Source: Acidobacteriaceae bacterium (GTDB lineage Bacteria > Acidobacteriota > Terriglobia > Terriglobales > Acidobacteriaceae). From it: DNA of 64,000 bases. A program made the position numbers and the translations under genes. The stretch is from NCBI GenBank assembly GCA_030041515.1, contig JASHNS010000027.1, forward strand, positions 1 through 64,000, in the 5' to 3' direction. Each line of letters starts with the position of its first letter. The first letter of the stretch is position 1. Positions 60,267-62,836 of the stretch are shown here, one piece after another. The notes beneath the pieces were generated by a model. The model did no database searches. It saw only the letters and a program-made list of their open reading frames with translations, and was not told the DNA's origin.

Positions 60267-62063
60267 CTACCGCTTCTTCTTTTTGTGGTCCTTCTTCAGC
60301 GGCTTTGAGGGCTTCGCGGGCCGCTTTACGGCAGGCTTCGCGGCCTTTTTCTTCGAGATTGGTTTCGCAGCCGGTTTGGCGGCCTTCTTTGCGGGTGGCG
60401 CAGGAGCCCTGGGCTTCGGCACTCGTTTGGTCGCCGCCTTCGTCTCCGGTTTCGTTACTTTGGCCGCAGGTTTCCCTTCAACTTTGGCCGCGGTCTTCGG
60501 CTGCGCCTTCGCCGACGCCCTGGCCTCAGGCCTGGCGCTGGGCTTTGCCTCCGACACTGGAGCTTTGCCCGCAACCCTGGGAGCCTCTTTCGCGGCTTTG
60601 CCAGGGCCGCCCTTGCCGGCTGCCTTGGGCGCAGGCGGCAGTTTCTCCGCATACTCCCGCTCTGCCTCCTCGTCCTCATCTTCGTGCTCGTCGTCGGCAC
60701 TGCGGGGAAGATCCAGGTCTTCTTCCTCCTCCTCGATTTTGGGCTCAGCACGGCGTCGCGTGCGGCGAATAACGACCGGCGGGGGCGGAGCCGGTGGTGA
60801 GAACGGCTGCAGGAAGGCGCGAATCTCCTCGTCGGTCTGCAGCTTCGAGTCCATGAACTGGTAGAACAGCGCTTCCGCGACGTTGCCGTAATCCGGCAGG
60901 TCCGGCGTGATGCGCATCTCGGCCATCAGGGCAACCGGAATTTTTTGCCGTGCTTCCGGCCAGACGTTGAAAAAATTATTGAATTTCTCGCGGACCTGCG
61001 CGTTCTTTGAGGAAAACGCCAGCCACAGCACCGCCTCCGGCGAATAGCTGGTCAGCAGTTTCCAGGTGGAAGAGGGTGTGCTCGCCCCTTTACCCAATAG
61101 CTCTTTGGCGAAATCCTTTGCCGATTTTTCCAGGCCGTTCCACTGTTCCACGAAGCCATGGCGCGGGAAAGCACGCTTCAGAGAGGCAATATCCTTGGGC
61201 GGCATCTTCGCCGTCAGCAACTCCATGTGCCCCGCCGAAGTGTCTGCATGCACGCCCAGCATGAGGAGGCGCACGTAAATACGGGTCAGCTCTTCCAGGC
61301 CCTTCACGTCGGCTTTCGCAGCGGTCCAGGAAGGACACAGCGCCTTCATCCACCCCTCAGCTTCCAGCGTTCGAAGCACTTTCAGAGGATCTTCCTCGTG
61401 CGCGATCTCTTCCAGTTCGTACCCGCGCAGGTACGGAGAGATCTGGTCGATAATCCCCTCGGCTTTGGCGTTCTCGTAACGCTGCCTGGTGCGCGCCTCC
61501 ATCTCCCATCCGGTGCGCACAGCCAGCCGAATCGCGCGAATCATCCGCGAAGGATCCTCCAGGAACCCGTAATTGCTGGCGAGACGCAAATGGCGCAACT
61601 CAATGTCGGCAAAGCCATTCAGCGGGTCAAGCAGCAGCCCCCACGAACCCTCGTTCAGCGAAATGGCCATGGCATTGGCCGTGAAGTCGCGGCGCCGCAG
61701 GTCCTCAAGGATAGGCGCCCAGTGGTAAACCGGCTTCCCCGGCTTCGGGTATTCCTCACTCCGGCAGCTGGAAACTTCCACGCGCACCGAGCCAGGGAAC
61801 CAGAAAAAGAGCGTCCGCGAAGGCTCGTGCTCTCCCCACGAGACTGCGCCAGCTTTCTCCAGCACTTTCTTTAACTTGAGGGCGTTACCCTGAACGGAAA
61901 AATCAAGGTCGCGGACGGGAAACCCGCTCGTGAGGTCCCGCACCGCGCCGCCGGCCAAAAACAAAGGCATGCCGGCATTACGGGCGGCATCACGTACAAG
62001 GCGGAGGGCGTTTTGCTGTGCGGCGGAAAGGCGATTTTCGAGAAGATAGTTATAGTCGGGCAT
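60267..62063 (-). CDS. CCA-adding/poly(A) polymerase-family nucleotidyltransferase with histone-like C-terminal tail
   Basis: The product is 598 residues. The head and neck domains are FLAGGAVRDLTSGFPVRDLD F (GGAVRD and catalytic DLD), LRRRDFTANAMAI (motif B) and YELEEIAHEEDPLKVLRTLE. This is the class II tRNA CCA-transferase / poly(A) polymerase family, acting on RNA 3' ends. The fold ends near residue 425. It is followed by an acidic run (about 440-468) and then about 125 residues of Lys/Ala/Pro repeats (AAKPAAKPISKKKAAKP), like histone H1 or AlgP tails. The tail is one continuous frame with no break. Confidence 0.9.
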   Translation of the reverse strand: MPDYNYLLENRLSAAQQNALRLVRDAARNAGMPLFLAGGAVRDLTSGFPVRDLDFSVQGNALKLKKVLEKAGAVSWGEHEPSRTLFFWFPGSVRVEVSSCRSEEYPKPGKPVYHWAPILEDLRRRDFTANAMAISLNEGSWGLLLDPLNGFADIELRHLRLASNYGFLEDPSRMIRAIRLAVRTGWEMEARTRQRYENAKAEGIIDQISPYLRGYELEEIAHEEDPLKVLRTLEAEGWMKALCPSWTAAKADVKGLEELTRIYVRLLMLGVHADTSAGHMELLTAKMPPKDIASLKRAFPRHGFVEQWNGLEKSAKDFAKELLGKGASTPSSTWKLLTSYSPEAVLWLAFSSKNAQVREKFNNFFNVWPEARQKIPVALMAEMRITPDLPDYGNVAEALFYQFMDSKLQTDEEIRAFLQPFSPPAPPPPVVIRRTRRRAEPKIEEEEEDLDLPRSADDEHEDEDEEAEREYAEKLPPAPKAAGKGGPGKAAKEAPRVAGKAPVSEAKPSARPEARASAKAQPKTAAKVEGKPAAKVTKPETKAATKRVPKPRAPAPPAKKAAKPAAKPISKKKAAKPAVKRPAKPSKPLKKDHKKKKR

Positions 62064-62302: not shown

Positions 62303-62836
62303 ATGGCATCGAGCCGAAAAAAGGCAATCTTCCGCAAGCTGTCGCGCGACTGGCTGGCGGGCTACCTGCCTGCGGGAGATTTCGTCCACGGCGGCCGCGT
62401 CGAGATGCTCGATTTGGAAGGCAAGGTCGTGTCGCTGGACACCGACGATCTGAAGTGGATCTGCTACGTCCGCGACTTTAACTCCGGGGAACTGAACAAT
62501 CCGGAACGGCTCATTCGAAAAACTTTCGCCGGGCGGCCACGCGGCGATGGATTGTTCCTGCGCGTACGCCTGAAGGACGGTGACCTGGTCGAGGGTCTGG
62601 CAGCCAACGATGCCAGCCTCATCGCCAGCGAAGGTCTGTTTCTCACCCCTCCCGATCTGCGGTCGAATACCCAGCGCATCTGGATTCCGCGAGCCGCCGT
62701 GGAGGAACTGGAAGTGGCGGCCGTGATTGGCGGCAGGAAAAAGGCGGAGGCCCAGGCGCCTGCGCCGGCAGAAGCGGCGCAGGAGGAGCTGTTCGGGGTT
62801 GGCGCCGAGACCCTCCACCCCAAAATGGTTCACTGA
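62303..62836 (+). CDS. conserved-looking soluble protein, unrecognised
   Basis: About 177 residues from ATG 62303 with GGGGAAG upstream. KAIFRKLSRDWLAGYLPAGD, GGRVEMLDLEGKVVSLDTDD LKWICYVRDF, PERLIRKTFAGRPRGDGLFL and LFLTPPDLRSNTQRIWIPRA suggest two small beta-rich domains. It resembles proteins common in Acidobacteria whose function is not known. The tail is Ala/Glu-rich. No signal peptide or enzyme motif. Confidence 0.75.
   Translation: MASSRKKAIFRKLSRDWLAGYLPAGDFVHGGRVEMLDLEGKVVSLDTDDLKWICYVRDFNSGELNNPERLIRKTFAGRPRGDGLFLRVRLKDGDLVEGLAANDASLIASEGLFLTPPDLRSNTQRIWIPRAAVEELEVAAVIGGRKKAEAQAPAPAEAAQEELFGVGAETLHPKMVH

Follow-up and report, generated by a model that had tools for sequence, protein, structure and literature searches.

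Catalysis by CCA-adding enzymes is textbook knowledge. E. coli poly(A) polymerase I (PAP I), a protein of the same superfamily, has a basic C-terminus that serves as an RNA-binding region. The described proteins closest to the gene analyzed here are the class II CCA-adding enzyme of T. maritima (PDB 3h37/3h38) and the A-adding enzyme of Aquifex (AaL, PDB 4wby/1vfg), represented by the NCBIfam model NF041569. In the Aquifex enzyme, the EDxxR motif carries the ATP-reading residues Asp149 and Arg152, and a short loop is the reported hallmark of the CC-adding enzymes (PMC3925840). Disordered Lys/Ala/Pro tails of 125-200 aa are known from AlgP and PhaF of Pseudomonas, whose KPAA domains bind DNA and position granules (PMC9239181). 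Our literature search found no paper on a non-catalytic branch of the CCA-adding enzymes or on CCA-type pseudoenzymes.

In this work, we analyzed a 64,000-nucleotide stretch of DNA from an Acidobacteriaceae bacterium (contig JASHNS010000027.1 of assembly GCA_030041515.1), referred to as the window. It contains a tailed nucleotidyltransferase-like gene, termed paralogue A, and a divergently transcribed neighbor with the following features:

60267..62063, minus strand: paralogue A, class II tRNA nucleotidyltransferase-like protein with a polybasic C-terminal tail, 598 aa plus stop.
61584..62063, minus strand: head (nucleotidyltransferase) domain, residues 1-160, with PolyA_pol (PF01743) at 34-160.
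61902..61910, minus strand: catalytic DxD carboxylates D52 and D54, intact in the genus of the window, lost in 23 of 87 relatives.
60801..61583, minus strand: segment between the head domain and the Pro-rich linker, pLDDT mostly >85 in the predicted model.
60738..60800, minus strand: proline-rich linker and Arg cluster (SPPAPPPPVVIRRTRRRAEPK), residues 422-442; the Pro-rich linker is common to the whole family.
60654..60737, minus strand: acidic run, residues 443-470, net charge -16, lineage-specific.
60270..60653, minus strand: Lys/Ala/Pro-rich tail, residues 471-598, 128 aa, net charge +33, predicted disordered.
62303..62836, plus strand: divergent neighbor DUF6982 (PF22478), 177 aa, modeled as two small beta-barrels.

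The original prediction, in which an intact CCA/poly(A) polymerase-family head is followed in the same frame by about 30 acidic and 125 Lys/Ala/Pro-rich residues, describes this gene accurately. The ORF starts with ATG and runs through 598 codons of the minus strand without an internal stop, and its head matches PF01743 with an E-value of 5e-18 (66 bits versus a cut-off of 23). Residues 1-421 correspond to a complete class II CCA/A-adding tRNA nucleotidyltransferase with head, neck, body, and tail domains. In the AlphaFold2 model, which was built with 17 aligned homologues, confidence is high from residue 11 to ~421, with a dip near 141-150, and beyond residue 433 it is mostly <50, without secondary structure. 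Lysine accounts for 19% of the residues after position 420 versus 5.5% in the head. The C-terminal part has the histone-H1-like composition that had been proposed for it, which is also that of AlgP, and it is predicted disordered.

Residues 1-423 of the model superpose on whole class II structures, including the T. maritima CCA-adding enzyme (3h38, Z 24.2), the Aquifex A-adding enzyme (4wby/4wc2, Z 24.1/23.2), and 1miv; a Foldseek comparison of the model with class II structures gave an E-value of 1.5e-20. The rmsd of the structure matches is large (11-17 A), which probably reflects hinge movement between the domains. With the T. maritima enzyme, A shares the full head-neck-body-tail arrangement and, in the window protein, the catalytic motifs, but it is ~24% identical, accompanies an HD-type CCA enzyme as the second paralogue, carries the polybasic tail, and has lost its active site in several clades. 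The Aquifex A-adding enzyme provides a near-best structure and the best NCBIfam model, whereas the N-terminal DHH and CBS domains that characterize this family are missing from A, which carries a tail and matches NF041569 partially, at model positions 455-745 only (5.5e-33, 114 bits versus the curated cut-off of 1440). An 883-aa acidobacterial homologue matches NF041569 from end to end and yet scores 576 bits, under the cut-off; the relatives that the family profile detects in the phylum outside the class are often such full-length, NF041569-like proteins of ~880 aa. The simplest history suggested by these comparisons is that A descends from the long DHH-CBS A-adding type, the Terriglobia branch having lost the DHH-CBS N-terminal part, with the tail gained afterwards in most lineages.

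The genome also carries a separate PolyA_pol protein, paralogue B, composed of PolyA_pol, RNA-binding, HD, and NucTran2_2 domains, and nearly all close relatives have exactly two copies, A and B. As judged by eye, the B motifs are intact in all 10 genomes checked, including three with a degenerate A (G019, G025, and G027), and the B loop is long, as is typical of CCA enzymes, rather than short as in the CC-adding enzymes. Each of the 49 tRNA hits in 30 fetched loci has an encoded 3' CCA, some hits being counted repeatedly because the loci overlap; since the tRNA genes encode CCA, CCA addition in these bacteria is a matter of repair. Paralogue A is absent from the whole families f4, f9, and f10, where B or nothing remains; in one genome of f4 (G040, completeness 100), PolyA_pol matches are lacking altogether, for A and B alike. 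A split of CC and A addition between the two paralogues is disfavored as a class-wide explanation: A is degenerate where B is intact, B does not have the short loop, and the tRNA genes encode CCA.

In the window protein, the GG..RD, DxD, RRD, D....G..D, and EDxxR motifs are all intact, and each of the 12 A sequences from the same genus keeps all 19 tested motif residues. Across the A family, the motifs of an active enzyme are not conserved. Among 87 sequences, DxD is lost in 23 and RRD is altered in 24; 29 are hit in one or the other, and 38 retain all 19 tested residues. The DxD losses comprise a clade of nine sequences in which the motif reads ELE or DLE, GG has become GD, and EDxxR is mostly changed; the 13 sequences of family f2 with R[T/V/H/F/L/S]LDF and similar variants and RRD changed to RRG; and one separate sequence (L122). 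As EDxxR reads ATP in the Aquifex enzyme, sequences without R173 have impaired nucleotide selection as well. A quick maximum-likelihood tree of A, without bootstraps and with some long branches, places six changes for the combined label and has DxD lost on three separate occasions.

The degenerate clades have core dN/dS values of mostly 0.03-0.13, with 0.23 for one more distant pair, and the intact clades have values of 0.02-0.14; in the degenerate clades, head identity is not below body identity, an observation that weighs against the RNA-holding reading given below. The dN/dS ratios indicate that the degenerate A genes are not pseudogenes. The catalytic residues were lost independently in several clades, while the protein remained under strong purifying selection and usually kept its tail. 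The presence of A as a second paralogue beside B and the independent loss of its catalytic residues in several clades are points beyond the original prediction. A separate canonical CCA enzyme, encoded CCA, and catalytic loss under purifying selection together imply that the family-wide function cannot be nucleotide addition, and RNA 3'-end processing is not the conserved feature of the A family. For the same reasons, the proposed link of RNA 3'-end processing to the nucleoid through this fusion is not supported in its processing part, and the suggestion that it may hold RNA survives.

The same evidence bears on the possibility that, wherever its motifs are intact, as in the lineage of the window, A still functions in A addition or CCA repair, sharing the task with B and using the tail to raise tRNA affinity or processivity. 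The unbroken motifs of the window genus, the 38 fully intact sequences, the A-adding enzyme as best family model, and the Aquifex enzyme among the closest structures all fit such a role. We nevertheless consider it less likely than RNA holding, given the intact active site and CCA-type loop of B, the CCA already present in the tRNA genes, the degeneration of A in many relatives, and its disappearance from three families. For the window genus itself, an active enzyme is fully possible on the basis of the 19 intact residues, which counts against a pure RNA-holding role there.

The basic C-terminus raises a comparison with E. coli PAP I, since a poly(A) polymerase-like A could use its tail as an RNA-binding region in the same manner. 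The E. coli structure (3aql) matches A at Z 17.1, but over residues 1-299 only. The PAP signature [LIV][LIV]G[RK][RK]Fx[LIV]h[HQL][LIV] (PMC8208693) was not seen by eye in A or B, the pcnB models give lower scores than the A-adding and CCA models and fall far short of their cut-off, and the catalytic residues are lost in relatives, which makes a poly(A) polymerase very unlikely.

The tail was traced through the relatives, as the original prediction had proposed, and it proved to be a general property of the family. Mostly metagenome-assembled genomes underlie the loci compared. All 12 same-genus sequences are tailed (163-253 aa; one sequence is truncated by the end of its contig); the tails span 68 to 310 aa within the same family, 32-202 aa in the sister family f2, and ~17-101 aa in more distant members of the class. 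At least 40 residues follow position 420 in 77 of the 83 complete A sequences of the class, and in all 77 tails the final 40 residues have a net charge of at least +7 (median +14). In six members of the class the tail is very short or absent, and it is thus not indispensable to the A family. Single-contig genomes and an isolate, Granulicella aggregans (L049), show the same head-plus-tail architecture. Between relatives, tail dN/dS in the ORF's own frame is mostly 0.08-0.27; the values are rough, the tail alignments being loose, and they point to purifying selection on the tail. The architecture in relatives, the isolate, and the single-contig genomes, together with these ratios, rules out a frameshift or misassembly as the origin of the tail. 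No plasmid-borne close relatives of A were found, all matches being <60% identical and partial.

The acidic run is limited to the window genus, its nearer relatives, and a few other sequences (L044 and L129); the basic end is the conserved part of the tail and the acidic run a lineage-specific one. In L129 and L044, the negative charge of the acidic run exceeds the positive charge of the basic part (net -18 and -4, respectively), with the terminus of L044 still basic. Judging from these two sequences, overall tail charge is not strictly conserved.

Within its own genome, the tail of A is nearly unique. Among 1,659 stop-to-stop ORFs of at least 120 aa from 464 kb, it is the sole 80-aa stretch with 59 K/A/P residues, the runner-up having 36, and a whole-genome search with the tail found no other convincing tail (best E-value 0.07). 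A generic genome-wide habit of K/A/P tails is ruled out by the composition scan and the tail search. The only other Lys-rich tail in the 464-kb sample is the Lys/Ser-rich C-terminus of an ORF on contig 75 of the genome (L226:95-1532, minus strand).

These observations leave little room for a low-complexity expansion of little function attached to slowly decaying heads. The variable length of the tail (47 to 310 aa), its low identity between relatives, and the six relatives without it are what such an expansion would produce, but it is hardly credible in view of the tail dN/dS, mostly <0.3 where measurable, the terminal basic charge held in 77 of 77 tails, the core dN/dS of ~0.1 in degenerate clades with full ORFs throughout, and the near uniqueness of the tail in its own genome. 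If the tail tethered A to the nucleoid or polyphosphate in the manner of AlgP and PhaF, it would place the protein rather than aid RNA binding; the composition, length, and predicted disorder of the tail resemble the KPAA domains. AlgP and PhaF have a helical domain of another kind as their folded part instead of a nucleotidyltransferase, while A, known here from its sequence and a predicted model, combines the tail with an RNA enzyme fold, and the adjacent acidic run would compete for the tail lysines. We consider a tether unlikely.

The DUF6982 gene lies upstream of A and points away from it in 73 of 88 loci, and no other arrangement was seen; several of the 15 loci without it have short flanks. 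The spacing is ~1 kb in families f2 and f6 and ~2.7 kb in f7; in one f2 locus (L029), the ~1 kb between the genes holds an ORF recognized by eye as a XerC-like recombinase. Scanning the divergent region for promoters and terminators found nothing. In 110 comparable genomes, both genes occur in 89 and neither in 15, with A only in five (all of family f5) and DUF6982 only in one (G393, with 9% contamination); because this pattern comprises few clade-level events, the co-occurrence is no more than suggestive. Many genomes of genus g43 have a second DUF6982 copy elsewhere.

Our literature search found no paper on DUF6982. Its predicted model (pLDDT 81) consists of two five-strand barrels, for which the commonest structure matches are Hfq (Z 6-6.9) and Sm/Gemin (Z 5.5-5.9), all weak at Z <8; the best Foldseek match is a tandem Tudor protein (E 3e-3). 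A replacement of Hfq by DUF6982 is ruled out by a strong Hfq match in most of these genomes. Beside the true Hfq, a second, weak Hfq-like ORF of ~116 aa was observed (G000:C62:71354-71524, minus strand), with counterparts in most relatives. In E. coli, Hfq is reported to stimulate PAP I as well as the CCA-adding enzyme (PMC2175515); on this precedent, an Sm-like partner for A is at most plausible.

Taken together, these data are best explained by A being an RNA-binding protein built from an A-adding-type enzyme and equipped with a polycationic, RNA-holding tail, to which we assign a probability of about 0.5. The conserved function would be RNA binding, and nucleotide addition, the ancestral activity, would be optional within the family. 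The retained head-neck-body scaffold may dock tRNA-like or 3'-terminal RNA, and the Lys-rich tail would add a non-specific, multivalent electrostatic grip on RNA and possibly promote multivalent RNA assembly. Where present, the acidic run may tune or shield the tail; its cancellation of the tail charge in L129 and L044 weakens a simple polycation model. The A protein of the window genus, with every motif intact, may still add or repair terminal nucleotides.

More tentatively, Terriglobia may possess a family of pseudo-tRNA-nucleotidyltransferases, in which the scaffold was repeatedly turned into a non-catalytic RNA holder bearing a disordered, polycationic tail; together with the Sm-like DUF6982, this holder would belong to an RNA-handling pathway not yet described. 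We regard this extension as speculative. The A locus points to DUF6982 as a conserved, uncharacterized putative partner gene, and A itself shows that a bacterial protein can combine an RNA-enzyme fold with a histone-H1-like tail. A class-wide acidobacterial branch in which the active site was lost repeatedly and the scaffold stayed under purifying selection would constitute a natural experiment on the role of a tRNA-shaped binding scaffold without the chemistry.
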